Assembly (NCBI RefSeq): GCF_002162375.1
Contig: NZ_CP021425.1
Coordinates: 4,667,001-4,731,000, forward strand
Reading direction: 5' to 3'
DNA from: Oleiphilus messinensis
Lineage (GTDB): Bacteria > Pseudomonadota > Gammaproteobacteria > Pseudomonadales > Oleiphilaceae
DNA length: 64,000 nucleotides
Below, piece by piece: positions 20,437-29,311 of this stretch. The notes beneath the pieces were generated by a model. That model searched no databases, was not told where the DNA came from, and saw only the letters and a program-made list of their open reading frames with translations. The position numbers and the translations under genes were made by a program. Within the stretch, counting starts at the first letter, position 1, and the number at the start of each line of letters is the position of its first letter.

Positions 20437-21408
20437 TTATAGTCCTTGATTCTTCAATCGATTAACTTGAGTCTTATAAAGAGTGACAGGATTAGGGGAG
20501 AAAATTGCTCTTAAACCGAATAACTGATTGACGGTATCAAAGTGATCCAACTTGTAGTCATTGCGAATCACTTTACCCAGGTGACTACTACATACCGTTA
20601 CCAGGCCATCATTTACCTCTCCATTAGCCAGCGCTAGAGAAAGAGCTTTATCTAAATATGAAAATGGATCAAGAAAGTTTGTGAAATCCCGATTACCAGT
20701 CCACGAGTAGAAGTAGATCCCATTATCAACGAGTGGTCCTTCACCACAATACTCCTCTGGCAGACCAGCTGGATAGTTATCATTGAATGTAGAATCTGTC
20801 ATCCAACCTCCCGCTTCTACTGAAATGAAAGCGCGTCCATCCATATCATAACCGGCGCCAGTCATGTAATCGATGAAATAACCAAATGTCTCACCAGTAG
20901 AAAGTATGAGATCCATCAAAGTGGATTCCATATCTACGTAATTTGCAAAATTACTGACAATACTCCCATGGTTCGGCCCAGACACGGAAGTAACTGATGC
21001 CACCAACTCTGGCGCCTCACCAGCAACATAGCGGGCATCAAGCGTTCCCTGGCTATGGGCAATCAAATTCACCTTTTCAGCCCCCGAAATAGCTAAAATA
21101 CAGCGTACTTTCTTGAGTAATTGGTCGCCTCTCACCAAACTTGAGTTCATTGCCGCTTGTTGTGTGACATAAACAGTAGCGCCGTTATCGGTCAGCTTAT
21201 CAATAATACCGTACCAATAATCAACGCCAAGCAACTCGTCAAAACCAAACCAACCATGAGCCATCACAATTGGATATTTTGTTTTATTGTAAGTTCCAGA
21301 GTTAGGTGCTGGCTCATGAATTGATATATTGGAACAATCCATCTCAAATGCGTGTGACTGGGCGGCAAACAACACAGCTAACCCGGCCAAAATTTTTCTT
21401 ATGCTCAT
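20437..21408 (-). CDS. lipA: Secreted triacylglycerol lipase (family I.1/I.2), first copy
   Basis: An extracellular lipase of 323 residues with a signal peptide (about 1-20, AQSHA). The oxyanion-hole segment is MAHGWFGFDELLGVDYWYGI (HG at 51-52). The nucleophile Ser119 lies in IAHSQG, where most of the family has GHSHG or GHSQG. The Asp (NDGLV) and His (DHFDTVNQLFGL) of the triad are present near the C-terminus. Cysteines in EEYCGEG and VTVCSSH match the family's disulfide. The gene is followed by its foldase and preceded by a NarL-type two-component system on the same strand. A perfect palindrome lies 72 bases upstream of its start. Confidence 0.95.
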   Translation of the reverse strand: MSIRKILAGLAVLFAAQSHAFEMDCSNISIHEPAPNSGTYNKTKYPIVMAHGWFGFDELLGVDYWYGIIDKLTDNGATVYVTQQAAMNSSLVRGDQLLKKVRCILAISGAEKVNLIAHSQGTLDARYVAGEAPELVASVTSVSGPNHGSIVSNFANYVDMESTLMDLILSTGETFGYFIDYMTGAGYDMDGRAFISVEAGGWMTDSTFNDNYPAGLPEEYCGEGPLVDNGIYFYSWTGNRDFTNFLDPFSYLDKALSLALANGEVNDGLVTVCSSHLGKVIRNDYKLDHFDTVNQLFGLRAIFSPNPVTLYKTQVNRLKNQGL

Positions 21409-21480: not shown

Positions 21481-21496
21481 AGTGACTAAAGTCACT
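21481..21496. promoter_or_regulatory. Palindrome upstream of lipase gene 1
   Basis: AGTGAC-TAAA-GTCACT is a perfect inverted repeat 72 bases upstream of the first lipase start. A near copy, AGTGAC-AAAA-GTCAT, lies 105 bases upstream of the second lipase gene. It is a candidate binding site for one or both NarL-type regulators encoded between the two lipase modules; this assignment is inferred. Confidence 0.5.
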
Positions 21497-21514
21497 TGTA
21501 AGAAAAAGTGTGAC

Positions 21515-22105
21515 CTACGCCAAACCTAAAGATTTAAGTCTAACAATTGCTTCTGCACGGTTTCGTACATCTAGTTTATTAAATAAATTCGAAGTGTAAT
21601 TTTTTACTGTCCCTAAACTCAAGCATTGTGCATCAGCAATTTCCTGATTGGTTTTCCCAGCAACCAACGCTCTGGCAATTTCATTTTCTCTCGAAGTAAG
21701 ACGCTCATGAGAAGCAGCCTGAGATCCCGAGATCAGAACTTCTCCGTTTGATACCCGCGCAATCGTGTTTATCAATACTTGTACATCAACATTTTTTAAT
21801 AACCAACCTTGCGCACCATTTTTTGCGACTTGTCGGCACAGGAAAGGATCCTCAAACGTAGTCAAAAAAATAACGGGAATGCTATGCTCTTTTCGAATAG
21901 CCTTTAAAGTTTCTAAGCCATTTAGGTCAGGCATCTGGACATCTAATAAAATCACATCAGGAAGCACACCATCTGAAAGCTGTTCCAAACATTGCCTACC
22001 ACTTTCTGCCGTTGCTAATACATCCACTTTTCCAGATAGTTTGAGTAATGTAGCGATACCTTGTAAAACAATCGTTTGATCATCAACGACCATTACCGTC
22101 TTCAC
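21515..22105 (-). CDS. NarL/LuxR-type response regulator 1
   Basis: A 196-residue response regulator. The receiver domain has DD at 8-9, phospho-acceptor Asp55 (VILLDVQMP) and Lys near 104 (WLLKNVDV). The LuxR-type helix-turn-helix spans about 130-190 (LTSRENEIARALVAGKTNQEIADAQCLSLGTVKNYTSNLFNKL). It starts at GTG and overlaps the stop of the upstream kinase gene by 4 bases, so kinase and regulator are coupled. It lies directly upstream of the first lipase gene and is the likely regulator of lipase expression. Confidence 0.9.
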   Translation of the reverse strand: MKTVMVVDDQTIVLQGIATLLKLSGKVDVLATAESGRQCLEQLSDGVLPDVILLDVQMPDLNGLETLKAIRKEHSIPVIFLTTFEDPFLCRQVAKNGAQGWLLKNVDVQVLINTIARVSNGEVLISGSQAASHERLTSRENEIARALVAGKTNQEIADAQCLSLGTVKNYTSNLFNKLDVRNRAEAIVRLKSLGLA

Positions 22106-23295
22106 TTCTGATCTCCATTTGGTATGGTTAGTTGGAGTTTAAATCCCCGATCCTGCTTTACTTCATAAGAAGCATTTCCCTCGATCAAAGCCAATCTCTC
22201 CTGCATCCCTGTCAGTCCATTGCCTGAATTAACCGACTGTGCCAGGCTACCGTTATCCACTACCTCGGCAACAAGCATTTCACCTGCGTGAAATAACCGG
22301 ATCCACACTTTATCCGCATTACTATGCTTTAAAACATTGGTTATTCCCTCTTGAATACAGCAAAGCAACTGTTCGGACTTATGTTGGTCTTTAATCCTTA
22401 AGTCGGGGTCGCAGTCTATATCAATATTCAATTTTGGAACTTTATCCACAATTTGAAGCAAGGAATCATAAAAGTATTCAAAGGTCTGCTGCTTTAATTC
22501 ATCTACAACATGCCCAAGGGTGAGATAGGCCTTTTGCGCGGCACTTTTCGCATTGTTTAGAGAGTCATTAGGCGTTTCACTATCGGATTCGCTTAAAAGC
22601 GCTTGTTCGCAAATTTGCAAATTTATATTAATCGCGGCAAGCTCGTGGCCCATTTTATCGTGGAGATCTCTACGAATCTGGCTACGTTCCTCCCTGCGAC
22701 TTGACTCAGCTAATTGCGCCTGAGCCATTTTCAACTGGGCTTGGCTAACTTTTAACCGCTTAGTTTCATTAATCTCATTAAATAGGCCATACCCTAATGA
22801 CCAAAGCACAAGTTGTTGGGTAAGTATATAAGCACCAATGTAGAATCTGTCAGGGTGATCAATTTGCAGGGTATAAAGCAAGGCAACCAATACGATTGAA
22901 GGCACTCCAATAAATGTAGAAAACCTGATGAACTGAACAGACAAGATAATTATCATGAACGATAACAATATCTGGTCCAGCGGACCAATATCCATCCAGT
23001 GGTTTATAAGAAATGCTGATCCATGGGAAGCAAAGAGCAACGACCAGCACACCCAGTCATCATCCTTTGTTAACCAGCTCACCCTGTTTATTAATATATT
23101 GTGCAATAACCAAATAGCATTGGCTAAGAAGAATACACCATTGGCGACACCCAAAAAAAGAAGCGGTAATGCTGTCTCAGAGTTATCTTGAGAAGCGAGG
23201 ATATAAACTCTACTAAAGGCAATAAACCAGGCAATCGACCCCAGCCCCCCTAAAATTGAGGCTCGAGCAACCACTGTCAGTTTCAATTTTGGCAT
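22102..23295 (-). CDS. NarX/DesK-type sensor histidine kinase 1
   Basis: A membrane sensor kinase of 397 residues with about six hydrophobic helices in the first 165 residues and little periplasmic sequence. This suggests it senses the membrane or a membrane-soluble signal. A coiled coil (about 175-205) leads to the HisKA_3 box RRDLHDKMGHELAAININLQ with His near 212. The HATPase has an N-box near 310 (CIQEGITNVLKHSNADKVWI) and NSGNGLTGMQERL near 362. It forms an operon with the regulator. Its closest visible relative in the window is the divergent kinase at 23748. Confidence 0.9.
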   Translation of the reverse strand: MPKLKLTVVARASILGGLGSIAWFIAFSRVYILASQDNSETALPLLFLGVANGVFFLANAIWLLHNILINRVSWLTKDDDWVCWSLLFASHGSAFLINHWMDIGPLDQILLSFMIIILSVQFIRFSTFIGVPSIVLVALLYTLQIDHPDRFYIGAYILTQQLVLWSLGYGLFNEINETKRLKVSQAQLKMAQAQLAESSRREERSQIRRDLHDKMGHELAAININLQICEQALLSESDSETPNDSLNNAKSAAQKAYLTLGHVVDELKQQTFEYFYDSLLQIVDKVPKLNIDIDCDPDLRIKDQHKSEQLLCCIQEGITNVLKHSNADKVWIRLFHAGEMLVAEVVDNGSLAQSVNSGNGLTGMQERLALIEGNASYEVKQDRGFKLQLTIPNGDQK

Positions 23296-23747
23296 TAAGA
23301 CTAAGCCCCTAAAGTAACTGTCTGATCAGCTAACAGGAAACGAAATGGTAATAAGGGGTATTGGCTAAAGATACCAAGCGATCTCGTGGTCGGTAAAGTC
23401 ATGGCAAAATCCTTTTTGCTTCGAAAGGTGAGTTTGCTGAACGATATTATGGGGAAGTCATACTGTCAATTCGTCGTGATTAAATTTTACTGGCCGTGCC
23501 TGTCCCTGCTGCAGCTGTACAGGCTTAATGTCTCTAGCAGAAGCGCGCGTTAGGGCGATACTGCCTTGGGATGCCAACTTGTTATGTTGCTGATACATTA
23601 CGGCTTTGAATTTGCTCGGCGATAGGATATTTGAATTACTGGCGATTCAGAGAGTTAGCAGGCATTAGGTGGTGTCATAATTCAATATGGTACAATTGCG
23701 CATTAATTTGTATGGTGATTCAGACTCTTATCGCATAAAACAGGTTA
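23296..23747. other. Divergent intergenic region with transposase debris
   Basis: This 452-base spacer separates the two divergent sensor-kinase genes. Its left part (23335-23505) is a degenerate copy of the 5' end of the RAYT gene at 28253-29221. The remaining 240 bases hold the presumed promoter of the plus-strand kinase. No further gene is seen. Confidence 0.7.
23335..23505 (-). pseudogene. Truncated 5' fragment of a RAYT transposase gene
   Basis: The sequence matches 29158-29322 over roughly 165 bases by eye, including the start codon (CAT at 23400-23402 corresponds to CAT at 29219-29221) and 80 bases upstream. Four extra bases after codon 4 shift the frame. The shifted frame then reads RLVSLANTPYYHFVSC and stops, matching RLVSLADTPYYHIVSR of the intact gene. 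The rest of the gene is absent. The fragment ends with the repeat GGCCGTGCCTGTCC at 23492-23505. Confidence 0.8.
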
Positions 23748-24953
23748 ATGGTATCAATGGACGTGGCATCTAATACTGATTTCAATCCGGTCAAAGCTCC
23801 TCCCGTGGTTTGGCGCGTTATCTTGCTGTTAGTAGCGGGATTTGTCGGATGGGGGGTCGTCGTAAGTGAGTTTTTAGGGTATAGCGGACCTCGCTCTGAT
23901 GTTTATTTATTAACGGTTTCCTTTTCTTTCTTGCATCTAGTGCTACTTACCTTGGCCACGCTACGATTTAGCAATAAATTTAAAGGCGTCGATCCTCATC
24001 AACTTTCTGAATTAAAGTATAAGCCTTCCACTTGGTTTTATGTAATTGCGGTTTATATCAACGCGCTCGCCTTGATTTACAGCGCATCGTTGCTGAACGC
24101 GAATTTATATGTGCTTTCCTTTATTTTGCTAAGTGGTGCGGCAATTATCGCTATTCTTCCTATTGTAGCGGTGCTGTTTATCACTGTTTTTTCGTCATTG
24201 ATATTCTATGTCATTACCCCTGAAACGTTCTCAGGGAGTTATGTCTTCTTTGTTTTGATTCAACAGCTTATGTTGGTTGTTCTGACGCTTTCTGCGCTCA
24301 AAGAGCAAAAAAAGGGGGAGTTACTAGCCAGAAGTCACCAAGAATTGTTTGCCACTCAATTGCTGTTAGAAGAAACGGCACGTAAAAACGAGCGTCGAAA
24401 ACTTTCGTTTGATCTTCATGACCAGATGGGACATACCCTGACGGCGGTTAATTGGAATTTGCAATATCTACAACATACGCTTGATGGGGAGCTGCTGAAG
24501 AAGGCCGAGGACACACTCGATCTGGTGACTAATCTATCAAAAACACTGCGTGAGCTGGTCAGCGAGATGAGAGAAAAATCTCAGGTAGACGTAAAACATG
24601 CCATTGAGCAGCTTGTAAATGTTACCCCGGGTCTTGAAATCAAATTAAATATCGATCAGTCGTTTGATTATTCTCTCGTTTTAGCCGAAGTGATTTTTCG
24701 CTGTTGCCAGGAAGCAATTACGAATGTTTTGCGTCATGCTAAAGCAACGCTGATGACAATATCTATTTCTGATAGTCATGATTTCATTGTCATGGTTATT
24801 GCAGACAACGGTGTTGGTATGAGCGATGCGCTCCCTGGCAATGGATTAACAGGAATGAAAGAGAGAATTGAACAGCTGAATGGTAGCTTCGAAATGCGGG
24901 AAAGTAGGGCGTCAGGCGTTTGTTTGTATATTACATTGCCGGTGAGTTGTTAG
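23748..24953 (+). CDS. NarX/DesK-type sensor histidine kinase 2
   Basis: A 401-residue membrane kinase, architecturally a twin of the divergent kinase at 22102. About six hydrophobic helices fill residues 20-175. A coiled coil leads into ERRKLSFDLHDQMGHTLTAVNWNLQ (His near 224). The N-box region CCQEAITNVLRHAKATL (about 325) and GNGLTGMKERIEQL follow. The two proteins are similar in layout but clearly diverged. The gene starts at 23748 (AGG six bases upstream); an ATG three codons later is possible. Its cognate regulator begins 4 bases after the stop. Confidence 0.9.
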   Translation: MVSMDVASNTDFNPVKAPPVVWRVILLLVAGFVGWGVVVSEFLGYSGPRSDVYLLTVSFSFLHLVLLTLATLRFSNKFKGVDPHQLSELKYKPSTWFYVIAVYINALALIYSASLLNANLYVLSFILLSGAAIIAILPIVAVLFITVFSSLIFYVITPETFSGSYVFFVLIQQLMLVVLTLSALKEQKKGELLARSHQELFATQLLLEETARKNERRKLSFDLHDQMGHTLTAVNWNLQYLQHTLDGELLKKAEDTLDLVTNLSKTLRELVSEMREKSQVDVKHAIEQLVNVTPGLEIKLNIDQSFDYSLVLAEVIFRCCQEAITNVLRHAKATLMTISISDSHDFIVMVIADNGVGMSDALPGNGLTGMKERIEQLNGSFEMRESRASGVCLYITLPVSC

Positions 24954-24957
24954 TTAG

Positions 24958-25548
24958 ATGATTAATGTGTTACTGGTTGATGACCAGCATATTGTTCGTC
25001 AGGGGATCGCTTCTTTGCTGAATTTGTCTGATGAAGTTTTGGTGCTTGCCGAAGCGGAGAGTGGCGAGGCTGCTTTAACGTTTCTGGCGAAAGCTGTACC
25101 GGATATTGTGCTAATGGATATTCGTATGCCTGGGATGAACGGTGTTGAAACGCTCATAGAAATGCGAGAAAGGAATATTCATTGCCCGACAATATTATTA
25201 ACTTCTTTTGAAGATACCGATTTGGTTCAAAAAGGATTAGCGGTGGGGGCTGTAGCGAGCCTTTTGAAGGATGTAACCATTGATGAGCTGCTTCGTGTGA
25301 TAAAAACGTATGCTTCAAATGGCCAGAAAATTAGGGCGAAGGAGTCACCAGATAACAACTTTAACACGTTAACTCCCCGTGAAAGCCAGGTACTTAGGTT
25401 AATTTCCCAAGGGTTGTGCAATAAAGAAATTGCCACTCAGTTGGGGCTTAGTACAGGTACGGTCAAAAACCATACCTCAAATATTTTTAGTAAGCTCGGT
25501 GTTCGTGATCGTATTCAAGCAGCGTTGAAATATAATCACCATTCATGA
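24958..25548 (+). CDS. NarL/LuxR-type response regulator 2
   Basis: A 196-residue response regulator, the same length as regulator 1 and similar in sequence. The phospho-acceptor is Asp54 (IVLMDIRMPGMNG). The C-terminal LuxR helix-turn-helix reads LTPRESQVLRLISQGLCNKEIATQLGLSTGTVKNHTSNIFSKL. It is coupled to kinase 2. Its 3' end overlaps the convergent foldase gene by 6 bases. It probably controls the second lipase module, the first, or both. Confidence 0.9.
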   Translation: MINVLLVDDQHIVRQGIASLLNLSDEVLVLAEAESGEAALTFLAKAVPDIVLMDIRMPGMNGVETLIEMRERNIHCPTILLTSFEDTDLVQKGLAVGAVASLLKDVTIDELLRVIKTYASNGQKIRAKESPDNNFNTLTPRESQVLRLISQGLCNKEIATQLGLSTGTVKNHTSNIFSKLGVRDRIQAALKYNHHS

Positions 25549-26643
25549 GTTTTGTTTAATTCGAGCGATATGATCCAGCGCCTCCATGCGTTTGATGTCT
25601 GCCTGACTTAATCCCATGGTATTACGCATCAGGTGATTGATCGCCGCTTTTTTGTCGGCATCGGTCATGCCAGAATGACTTTCAATGATAGCCTTCTCGG
25701 CAAGATACTGAAGCCGCTTCTTTTCCCATTGTTTTTTTCGTTCATCAATCAGTGCTAGCCTATCTGCAGCGGCAGAGCCAACCAAATCAACCCGTTTTTG
25801 ATAAATTTCTTCCTCACTGGCATTTGAACTTCTTAGTGACTTTTCTACGTGCTTGAGATTCATTGCGGAAAAAGATTTTTGTCTTTGCTCATACTGTTGC
25901 AGGGGGATCGTCTGTTCTAGCGCTGAAATACGTTGGCGCTTTTGATCGTTATTCAGGTTTGGATCACTGCTTACTTTTAGTATGGCCAAAGAGAGGTCGT
26001 CATAGGCGATATCTTCGCCAAACAGTGCCTCGGTTTCGGTGGTGGTGAAGACGTTATCTCTCACGGTTTGTCGAAGTGCTAGTAATTCTTCAACGGTTGA
26101 AAGCCCTTGGTGATTATCCCATGGGAAGTAAGGCTGTTCTTCCGGTAGGTTATTCTTATAAGCCATCAGTCGGTCATGGTAATCGATATATTTATCTAGC
26201 AGCATCAAAGCTTCACTTTGTGCAGGTTCGCTGAGGCGGTCCTTAATATAATGCGTAATTCGCAATGCTATCTGAGCTTGAGTCTCTTCCCCTCTAGCGG
26301 TGAAAAAATAATCAAACACATGACGTACACTTTGATTCAATATTAAGTGTCCATTGCTGTCTTGCTCAAGAGACCCTGTCACTTGTGTATTAATAAGCGA
26401 GTGGGGGAGTGATTTTAAGTCGAACGACTTATGGACTCCATTGCGTTTCAATTCCTCCTTCTTAACAAGGGCAGATTGTTTTTCCGAGGTATAAGAAGGC
26501 GTTTCTGCATATGGTTGTGTTGATCGGACAGCTTGGCTCTCCACATCTGATACGTGCGACCAGGTGTGGATGCCAATGGCACATAATCCACTTATTAGTC
26601 CTAATAATAGGACTATATACCGATGTTTAAGTGTCATTTGCAT
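25543..26643 (-). CDS. lifO: Lipase-specific foldase (Lif), second copy
   Basis: A 366-residue membrane-anchored periplasmic chaperone for the adjacent lipase. The N-terminal anchor is at about 8-26. The signature is RHVFDYFFTARGEE at 107-120, here with the canonical FDY. The helical C-terminal domain contains many charged heptads. It starts 17 bases after the stop of lipase 2. The 3' end overlaps the convergent response regulator by 6 bases. Similarity to the first Lif is clear (the motif ITGSL/QVTGSLEQDSNGHLIL region) but moderate, so the copies are old. Confidence 0.92.
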   Translation of the reverse strand: MQMTLKHRYIVLLLGLISGLCAIGIHTWSHVSDVESQAVRSTQPYAETPSYTSEKQSALVKKEELKRNGVHKSFDLKSLPHSLINTQVTGSLEQDSNGHLILNQSVRHVFDYFFTARGEETQAQIALRITHYIKDRLSEPAQSEALMLLDKYIDYHDRLMAYKNNLPEEQPYFPWDNHQGLSTVEELLALRQTVRDNVFTTTETEALFGEDIAYDDLSLAILKVSSDPNLNNDQKRQRISALEQTIPLQQYEQRQKSFSAMNLKHVEKSLRSSNASEEEIYQKRVDLVGSAAADRLALIDERKKQWEKKRLQYLAEKAIIESHSGMTDADKKAAINHLMRNTMGLSQADIKRMEALDHIARIKQNS

Positions 26644-26660
26644 ACCCTGCTGAGCCTGGA

Positions 26661-27713
26661 TTATAGATTATCTGCGCGTAGACGACTGACATGAGAGGCG
26701 TAAATAGCAGGAATCGAGACGCCATTAAACCAGGGTATTCCCGCAATTTGGTTAATGGCATCAAAATGTGTTGCTGTGTAGTCTAGTCTGATAACTTTAC
26801 CAAGAGCGTGGCCACAGGTTGGCATAAATCCATCCCACTCGTAATTGTCTGGGTCCGCGACGGACCACTGTACGAAATATTTAACGAAGTAGCGGGAGAA
26901 CAGGTCGAAGAGTTCCGTATTGGTGGTCGTTTCTTCATTGCCTCCCCACGAGTAAAAACGGATGGTATGTGGCCCGTTATCATCATAAAGTGTGACCAAA
27001 TGATCGCCATAGTGGTTTGCGGCTACTTCACCGGTCGTACCATTATTAATGGCCATACAATCTTGTTTGGGTAAGCCTGCGGGGTATTGTTGATTGAACT
27101 CGGCAACAGCTTCAGGCGTTGTTGCATGGCCCATCGTCACAAAAGATTGGTTGAGAGGGCGAGTTTCACTATTAAACTCTCCATCACGGGAAGGGGTAGA
27201 AATTATTTCAAGGAAGTTAAAGGCCCAGTTAGGGAAAAAAGACAATATGTTTTCAAGAACATCATTCTCTCCGGGTACGGCTGCCAACAATCCGGAAGCG
27301 TAATGCAGTCCCTTGTTTAAACCGTGTACACTGGTGATAGATGCAATCTGTCCGGGGATGATATATGCGGCATAGCGAGACGCCAGCGCTCCCTGGCTAT
27401 GGGCGATCAAGTTAGCTTTTGGCGCGTCTGCAATGGCGAGAACCTTTTGTATATCATCAACCAACTCTTCTCCCCGGGTAAAGTTATCGCTCAATGAGCT
27501 TAGGTTGACGACATAAACATCGGCCCCTTCTTTTATAAGACGAGAACGAATGCCATACCAGTAGTCGTATCCCAGCACACTATCAAAACAAAAGGCACCG
27601 CAAACCAGAATGATTGGATATTTCAATGATTTGGACGTATTGGCTGAAGCGGTGGATATCCCCTGAAGCAGAAACCCAGAAAACAGTATGGACAGTATTA
27701 TTCTTTTAAACAT
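26661..27713 (-). CDS. lipA: Secreted triacylglycerol lipase-like protein, second copy
   Basis: A LipA-family protein of 350 residues from the ATG at 27713. That start is chosen because AAGGAGAG lies 7 bases upstream and a normal signal peptide follows (about 1-24). A longer frame runs to 27848. The nucleophile Ser106 is in IAHSQG, and Asp and His are in WDGFMPTC and THFDAINQIAGI. The oxyanion-hole motif is altered: the family's HG reads CG here (ILVCGAFCFDSVLGYDYWYGI). An insertion of about 30 residues relative to copy 1 lies in the lid/C-terminal half. The altered motif raises the possibility of changed catalysis. Confidence 0.88.
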   Translation of the reverse strand: MFKRIILSILFSGFLLQGISTASANTSKSLKYPIILVCGAFCFDSVLGYDYWYGIRSRLIKEGADVYVVNLSSLSDNFTRGEELVDDIQKVLAIADAPKANLIAHSQGALASRYAAYIIPGQIASITSVHGLNKGLHYASGLLAAVPGENDVLENILSFFPNWAFNFLEIISTPSRDGEFNSETRPLNQSFVTMGHATTPEAVAEFNQQYPAGLPKQDCMAINNGTTGEVAANHYGDHLVTLYDDNGPHTIRFYSWGGNEETTTNTELFDLFSRYFVKYFVQWSVADPDNYEWDGFMPTCGHALGKVIRLDYTATHFDAINQIAGIPWFNGVSIPAIYASHVSRLRADNL

Positions 27714-27818
27714 TGCGGCCCTCTCCTTAGTGATAGTGTGTGTGAGTGCTTTTATCACTCTATCCTGTTGATAATAATATGAAGGAGTTATTTTATTTGT
27801 GCGGACAAATCGGGCAGA

Positions 27819-27833
27819 AGTGACAAAAGTCAT
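27819..27833. promoter_or_regulatory. Palindrome upstream of lipase gene 2
   Basis: AGTGAC-AAAA-GTCAT lies 105 bases upstream of the second lipase start and shares 13 of 15 bases with the perfect palindrome upstream of lipase 1. Its core TGAC-n4-GTCA is fully symmetric. It is a candidate site for a shared regulator. Confidence 0.45.
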
Positions 27834-28041
27834 GGGTCGCCATTGCAAAGTTGATTGTCAATTTGATATTTGTTGGATGCAGTCATGTATTAAGCCTCGT
27901 CTGCACTTTTTTTTCACGGACTACCCAAAATTTAAAAAAGTCAGAATTGAATTATTTTTGGAGGGTGGCAAAGATTCGTAACAGGCTGATGACGACGAAG
28001 AAAGAAGAAAGGGGTATGAACTCCAGACAATGAACTCCAGA

Positions 28042-28252: not shown

Positions 28253-29221
28253 TTAGGCTGCGATGGACTTGAGCTTTCGCCGTGAATACTGCCGCTCGTA
28301 TATCGCTTCAAATTGCGTTGATCGAGTTAACCAATCATGATTGCTCAAGCCTAATCGACAAAGTATGGACGGAAGGTGTTCTGGTGTACTGCCCCGCTTC
28401 GAGGGATGCACAGCTCGTCCGGTATAATCCACTAAGTGCAGGTAATCTTGCCAAGTAAAAGGCAAGCCCACTTGAACAGACCCCTTAATCGTTTCTTCGA
28501 AGTGAAGCAAGGGTTTGATCGATAAATTAAAACTGAATAAGGCCCCTTCCGAAATTTGGTTCTGTATTGCCTTTGCAGGATCAAATGCCGGACGTGCCCG
28601 TTCTTTCAGACTGGTGTGATCAGCTTCCTCGGGTGTATCCGCCATATTCGCCCGCACTGGATTGAGATCGACATAGGCCATGCAACTCAACAACGCCTCT
28701 TTCGTTAACAAGGCCTGCGACCGAAAGCGCCCTTCCCAGAAATGCCCTGTACAATCATCTTCTCGATTGGCCATGCGAGCAATGGGTTCATTGAGGCATT
28801 TCATAAACCAGCTCAGATCTGTGAGCCTTTTCCGATAGAGTTTAACCAGCGTTCCTAACGTGTTCTTCTCCGCAGTATCCAGCCTGTCGCCACGGAGATA
28901 TTTCCGTACAATCAAAGGCCCCTTGAACACTGAACACCAGCGTGCAAGTACATCATCCTGCGACCAATCCAGAGCTTCATCCGGATTCAACTTGATCACG
29001 AGATGATAGTGATTGGACATTACAGCATAAGCACAAATATCAACGGTGAAAAGCGATGATAGCAAGCGGATACGGTCTTCGATCCACTGCCTCCGGTGTT
29101 CAAAACTCTGACCGGTTTGATGATCCGTGCCGCAAAGGAATGTGCGACGCACGCAACGGGAAACGATATGGTAATAAGGGGTATCGGCTAAAGATACCAA
29201 GCGATCTCGGGGTACAGTCAT
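28253..29221 (-). CDS. REP-associated tyrosine transposase (RAYT, Y1_Tnp/IS200-like)
   Basis: A single-strand-specific HUH nuclease of the TnpA-REP family, 322 residues. The N-terminus MTVPRDRLVSLADTPYYHIVSR is typical of RAYTs. The HUH motif is HYH at 71-73 (AVMSNHYHLVIKL). The segment GHFWEGRFRSQALLTKEALLSCMAYVDLNPVRA near 175-205 contains the candidate catalytic Tyr. A C-terminal extension of about 100 residues ends in the basic RRKLKS. Such enzymes are thought to spread REP/REPIN repeats rather than move like insertion sequences, and matching short repeats flank this gene. Confidence 0.93.
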   Translation of the reverse strand: MTVPRDRLVSLADTPYYHIVSRCVRRTFLCGTDHQTGQSFEHRRQWIEDRIRLLSSLFTVDICAYAVMSNHYHLVIKLNPDEALDWSQDDVLARWCSVFKGPLIVRKYLRGDRLDTAEKNTLGTLVKLYRKRLTDLSWFMKCLNEPIARMANREDDCTGHFWEGRFRSQALLTKEALLSCMAYVDLNPVRANMADTPEEADHTSLKERARPAFDPAKAIQNQISEGALFSFNLSIKPLLHFEETIKGSVQVGLPFTWQDYLHLVDYTGRAVHPSKRGSTPEHLPSILCRLGLSNHDWLTRSTQFEAIYERQYSRRKLKSIAA

Positions 29222-29311
29222 GGCAAAATCCTTTTTGCTGCGAATGATGGGTTGGCTTGAAGATATTATGAGGAAGCCACACTGTCAATTCGGAGTGGTT
29301 AAATTTGTGAT

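Follow-up and report, generated by a model that had tools for sequence, protein, structure and literature searches.

A TGAC-N4-GTCA palindrome before two lipase–foldase operons of Oleiphilus messinensis as a candidate operator of DesR-like response regulators

Two lipase–foldase operons of Oleiphilus messinensis, both within one 64,000-nucleotide (64-kb) stretch of the genome (herein referred to as the window), are each preceded by a palindrome with the core TGAC-N4-GTCA, and we propose that both palindromes are probably the operator of the DesR-like response regulator RR1, and perhaps of its paralogue RR2 as well. The proposal is built on comparison of sequences: direct computation gives the two sites and where they lie, shows the dyad recurring next to RR1-like genes of another bacterial family and yields the match to the DesR core.

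Sites and layout of the lipase loci

The first locus runs along the minus strand in the order HK1, RR1, site 1, lipase 1 and foldase 1 (table 1). Site 1 (AGTGACTAAAGTCACT; AGTGACTTTAGTCACT when written gene-ward) leaves 72 bases to the start codon of lipase 1 (ATG, with its A at 21408, minus) and 18 to the stop codon of RR1 (21515–21517). HK2 and RR2 run the opposite way; beyond them, again on the minus strand, lie foldase 2 and lipase 2, with site 2 (AGTGACAAAAGTCATG; gene-ward CATGACTTTTGTCACT) 105 bases before the start codon of lipase 2 (ATG, with its A at 27713, minus). Both palindromes and both distances had been reported in the first-pass annotation, and they are exact. The sites are identical at 13 of 16 bases, and TGAC-N4-GTCA is found in the window at these two places only. 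The words "lipase" and "two-component" are absent from the main text of the paper on O. messinensis ME102 (PMC5847120).

Table 1. Features of the two lipase loci, in window coordinates
Feature	Position	Strand	Remarks
Site 1, AGTGACTTTAGTCACT	21481..21496	-	Proposed DesR-like operator; longest inverted repeat of the RR1–lipase 1 gap
Site 2, CATGACTTTTGTCACT	27819..27834	-	Proposed DesR-like operator with one imperfect half; not the leader's longest inverted repeat
Lipase 1, 323 aa	20437..21408	-	Abhydrolase_1
Lipase 1 foldase, 357 aa	19306..20379	-	Lipase_chap
RR1, response regulator with LuxR-type HTH, 196 aa, GTG start	21515..22105	-	Response_reg + GerE
HK1, HisKA_3 membrane kinase, 397 aa	22102..23295	-	4 hydrophobic segments
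HK2, HisKA_3 membrane kinase, 401 aa	23748..24953	+	5 hydrophobic segments
RR2, response regulator with LuxR-type HTH, 196 aa	24958..25548	+	Response_reg + GerE
Lipase 2 foldase, 366 aa	25543..26643	-	Lipase_chap
Lipase 2, 350 aa	26661..27713	-	Abhydrolase_1; 34% identical to lipase 1
TAAAAT, putative -10-like hexamer	27790..27795	-	About 31 bases from the site 2 centre

The dyad beside RR1-like genes in Thalassolituus

RR2, used as the query across 390 genomes of the order, brought up L077, a locus of RR1-like type that carries AGTGACAATTGTCACT just past the regulator. A search of the family of L077 with RR1 then gave 12 places, spread over 9 of 44 genomes; all 12 fall in one genus (which includes Thalassolituus oleivorans). 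At four of the six loci of close RR1 relatives (50–58% identical), a dyad resembling AGTGAC-N4-GTCACT, scored as present at two mismatches or fewer, lies between the regulator and the next gene; the six loci of more distant relatives (47–50%; 3.6 kb each) have none. The dyad thus stands beside the same kind of sensor and regulator genes in relatives, and is therefore probably the landing site of that regulator. This supports the suggestion of the first-pass annotation that the palindromes are a candidate operator for one or both of the NarL-type regulators, with the comparative evidence concerning RR1. Beyond this genus, an RR1 search of 369 genomes at the level of the class added one further match (45%), and among the 80 of 530 relatives listed in an RR1-alignment scan only L176 is close (54%), the rest being 28–39% identical. 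With lipase 1 as the query, no relative was found in the named genomes.

Written gene-ward, the four dyads are AGTGACAATTGTCACT (G447), AGTGACATTTGTCACT (G556), AGTGACAAAGGGCACT (G553) and TATGACAAATGTCACT (G334). In a motif-free test no other inverted repeat in the gaps of G447 (where the dyad is 18 bp and perfect), G556 or G553 matches the length of the dyad, and in G334 the dyad is tied for longest (arm of 5); this result is not circular, because no motif was used, although the regions were chosen in the knowledge that the dyad lay inside. The genes downstream of all four dyads have exported-looking products: a beta-propeller protein in G447, G553 and G556, whose three aligned leaders have the dyad as their longest conserved block, and a 405-residue DUF6160-like protein in G334 (a weak match, E 0.007). 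G553 carries a second dyad, CATGACAAAGGTCACT, at the start of the kinase gene.

The two remaining genomes with close RR1 relatives, G554 and G263, have no dyad adjacent to the regulator and instead have one on other contigs, before a counterpart of the G334 target (75–78% identical); the stretches examined there contain no regulator match. G447 has a further dyad in front of a homologue (41% identical) that is present as a broken tandem copy. The exported target gave 25 matches across the Thalassolituus genus and 21 in other genera. Inspection covered the former, less two fragments (G556 C16 and the 3' piece of that broken copy in G447); of these 23 homologues, 4 have the dyad, so that the site tracks certain targets and not the whole protein family. 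In a shuffled 403-bp leader, a dyad arises by chance in 1.2% of cases.

The nine genomes with RR1-like genes show no over-representation of AGTGAC-N4-GTCAYW (40 hits vs 56 for the control); the other 35 genomes hold 44 hits vs 148, so that the nine are only less depleted. The places inspected all lie within the nine genomes, where they comprise all but those on G554 C1, C69, C82 and C86 and on G555 C175 and C212. A matrix built from the genus sites alone gives the two lipase sites the top two ranks in the window, which none of 200 column-permuted matrices matched; this ranking is partly circular, because the genus sites were collected with a pattern derived from the lipase sites.

Five of the nine sites (site 2, G334, G263, G554 and the second G447 site) share a polarity, with ATGAC as the gene-distal half and GTCACT as the gene-side half; only in G553 does the mismatch fall on the side of the gene. 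In four (site 2, G263, G554 and the second G447 site) a TANNNT hexamer starts 30–31 bases past the site centre, a spacing noticed post hoc that would fit an activator placed over the -35 region.

Likeness to DesK–DesR and the competing readings

NarL-type regulators recognize half-sites of the heptamer TACYNMT. The 7-2-7 geometry of such sites matches site 1, whereas the half-sites found here are not TACYNMT. A closer likeness is to DesK–DesR, which similarly pairs HisKA_3 membrane kinases with regulators made of a receiver and a LuxR-type HTH. The best solved relative of both kinases is DesK (9.8e-17 for HK1 and 3.8e-13 for HK2), and hydropathy gives five membrane segments in HK2 and four in HK1, against the five helices of the DesK kind. 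The DesR box of Bacillus subtilis, ATGACA-N2-TGTCAT (PMC11034029), has the same TGAC-N4-GTCA core as both lipase sites, a second point in favour of the operator reading. The full box is not reproduced: counted by eye, site 2 fits at 10 of 12 positions and site 1 at 8 of 12, with the outer bases of site 1 differing. The same source gives ATGACATTTGTCAT as the motif of the pneumococcal regulator RR11 (PMC11034029), from which the G554 site, ATGACATTTGTCAC, is one base removed. The extra half-site of the DesR promoter has no constant place at the nine sites: TGAC or GTCA occurs within 45 bp, at varying offsets, in five and is absent in four.

The regulators themselves are less clear-cut. The best solved relatives of RR1 are VraR (1.1e-28) and then, by a small margin, DesR (1.7e-27). 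Over 52 HTH positions, RR1 shares 24 identities with DesR and 26 with VraR, and RR2 shares 25 and 29, respectively; the HTH domains being no nearer to DesR than to VraR, we liken the working of the site to that of a DesR box, without calling RR1 a DesR. For the Thalassolituus regulators the corresponding counts do favour DesR, with 24 for DesR vs 19 for VraR (G447) and 27 vs 20 (G334).

Which paralogue uses the sites bears on the strongest competing reading, that they are an operator for RR2 only or are divided between RR1 and RR2. RR2 is nearest to DesR by sequence search (best solved relative, 6.8e-34) and adjoins lipase 2; RR1 and RR2 are 45% identical, and their recognition helices are similar (GTVKNYTSN and GTVKNHTSN). 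We nevertheless consider this unlikely: the loci that bear dyads are those of RR1 relatives, and among the 30 best-match loci of RR2 a TGAC-N4-GTCA adjacent to the regulator gene, and outside the coding sequence of that gene, occurs only in the RR1-like L077.

The dyads also resemble CRP/Vfr sites, with GTGA-N6-TCAC-like halves, and cAMP–CRP could control the lipases. A CRP gene is encoded in the genome (NCBIfam equivalog, 374.6 bits; cut-off 266). Lipase relatives occur in 134 of 163 genomes (that of O. messinensis included), and of the 29 from the family whose upstream regions were taken, the best one per genome, 11 have TGTGA-N6-TCACA at one mismatch or fewer within 600 bp upstream; lipases there may therefore be CRP genes. 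At the sites described here, however, this consensus is matched poorly, with two mismatches at site 1 and three at site 2, T in place of the outer A in all nine sites and ATGA for GTGA in one half of five; moreover, the dyads come after RR1-like genes, and the genome shows no enrichment of TGTGA-N6-TCACA (8 places vs 7 for the control). CRP control of these two operons consequently appears distinctly improbable.

Slightly less credible still is that two short palindromes fell before two lipase genes by chance. The core count is at random level: the window has 2 occurrences vs 0.99 expected, with at least two in 24 of 100 shuffles, and the whole genome, scanned as one contig of 6,379,281 bases, has 83 places vs 111 for a reversed-pattern control, so that neither shows enrichment. 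The first-pass annotation had named random frequency in a genome scan as a result that would refute its reading, and for the bare core the scan does come out at random; it is not an apt test, because a regulon of few sites cannot register in a count of this kind. Its accompanying expectation, that hits would cluster at lipid genes, was not borne out, with no site of fewer than three mismatches upstream of the four other O. messinensis lipases (best 3 mismatches at L054 and L055, 4 at L053 and L056). Three of those four are accompanied by a foldase gene. O. messinensis thus has five lipase–foldase gene sets, and the dyad is found only at the two beside kinase–regulator pairs, a point for the operator reading.

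In the whole genome, AGTGAC-N4-GTCA gives 7 hits, which fall at 6 places (control 6 + 9 hits); an all-A/T spacer is confined to the two lipase sites. For RTGAC-N4-GTCACT there are 5 hits, at 4 places (control 6 + 2 hits). Two of these places are the lipase sites, the others lying inside an AbiEii-like CDS and in the intergenic stretch that separates a 5'-nucleotidase gene from a beta-helix-like one. When leader pairs were resampled, 86 of 5000 had any 4-base-arm dyad of the same spacing in common, which leaves some room for coincidence, whereas only 5 of 3000 reached the observed 13-of-16 identity; recurrence beside RR1-like genes is likewise hard to square with chance. The unusual feature is the position in both lipase leaders together with this identity, and not the motif count.

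Least probable of all is that the dyad acts as RNA, site 1 being a weak intrinsic terminator of the HK1–RR1 transcript and site 2 unrelated: site 1 does form a 6-bp stem on the minus strand (-6.9 kcal/mol, a value that none of 200 shuffles equalled) with ATTTTG after it, and is one of 15 candidates in a terminator scan (7.3 expected), but the site 2 stem reaches only -3.3 kcal/mol with no T run, and no T run follows the stem of the G447, G556 and G553 counterparts. Both the CRP and the terminator readings fit worse than the operator of a regulator.

A proposed membrane-linked switch for exported lipases

On the operator reading, HK1, and perhaps HK2, would act as a membrane kinase that phosphorylates its regulator, and a dimer of RR1, possibly also one of its paralogue RR2, would bind TGAC-N4-GTCA beside the -35 region or overlapping it, most likely activating the lipase–foldase operon. 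We infer the binding itself, activation as opposed to repression and the identity of the acting regulator; by analogy with DesK, the signal could be the state of the membrane.

The type of switch is known, and its use for lipases looks new. DesK–DesR controls a desaturase, whereas the gene set here is a lipase–foldase operon and, in the relatives, genes for beta-propeller or DUF6160-like exported proteins; RR11 and other Gram-positive DesKR relatives have their sites before ABC transporter genes, whereas here they precede secreted lipases in a gammaproteobacterium. The literature covered, that outside subscription papers, describes neither a lipase operon under a DesR-like box nor a two-component operator for lipase–foldase operons, which are of industrial interest.

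We tentatively hypothesize, as a reading less likely than not, that marine bacteria specialized as obligate oil degraders have turned DesKR-like systems, which monitor the membrane in Bacillus, to the control of exported proteins while keeping the TGAC-N4-GTCA box (in Oleiphilus, lipases together with their foldases; in Thalassolituus, large proteins of beta-propeller type and DUF6160-like ones), such that lipase output would follow the physical state of the membrane, as changed by alkanes and lipids, and two paralogous pairs may read one box. If true, this would make the sharing of one box by two paralogous regulators testable, would take the DesR box beyond membrane control in Gram-positives, to the exported enzymes of gammaproteobacteria, and would provide a direct handle on the switching of lipase secretion in oil-degrading bacteria.

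Repeat between the window's kinase genes

The gap between the genes of the two HisKA_3 membrane kinases, HK1 and HK2, holds a stretch 84-93% identical to a second copy in the window, which lies at the start of a Y1-transposase-like gene. Judged by this resemblance, the stretch is a putative mobile-element remnant lying between both kinase genes.

Sites resembling the CRP/Vfr consensus

CRP/Vfr-like sites (TGTGA-N6-TCACA, at most one mismatch) lie upstream of 11 of 29 lipase relatives from the window's taxonomic family, for example at loci L037 and L040. A further site in the Oleiphilus messinensis genome, TGTGACATACGTCACT, matches the CRP consensus with one mismatch and the proposed DesR-like operator equally well.

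Dyads in the Thalassolituus genus

G554 and G263, Thalassolituus-genus genomes with close relatives of RR1 (the response regulator beside lipase 1), carry the exact 16-mer of site 1, the lipase 1 dyad; it stands upstream of a lipoprotein-like gene and of a conserved small gene of 99/103 residues with 68% identity. In G554 no dyad adjoins the RR1-like gene, and the neighbouring kinase gene is split into two open frames; AGTGAC-GCAT/ATGC-GTCACT occurs at four places in this genome (contigs C39, C69, C82 and C86), perhaps as a repeated element.

In six Thalassolituus-genus genomes a carbonic-anhydrase gene carries at its 3' end a dyad resembling AGTGACTTTAGTCACT, and this dyad precedes a 288-residue gene. 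The six loci are orthologues, and the genomes are the same six that carry more distant RR1 relatives (47-50% identical), which may be the regulators of this dyad.

Positions of the features, by examined locus (L) or window coordinate
Feature	Position	Setting
Repeated stretch	window 23332-23487	HK1-HK2 gap
Repeated stretch	window 29155-29306	
TGTGACATACGTCACT	L175:1501-1515 (genome 5627662-5627676)	gap, 5'-nucleotidase gene to beta-helix-like gene
Exact site 1 16-mer	L151:7822, L151:10468, L152:7299	G554 and G263
Split kinase gene	L162:6347-7534	G554
AGTGACTTTAGTCACT-like dyad	L153:7601, L154:7530, L155:6924, L156:7517, L158:7186, L168:7009	carbonic-anhydrase gene
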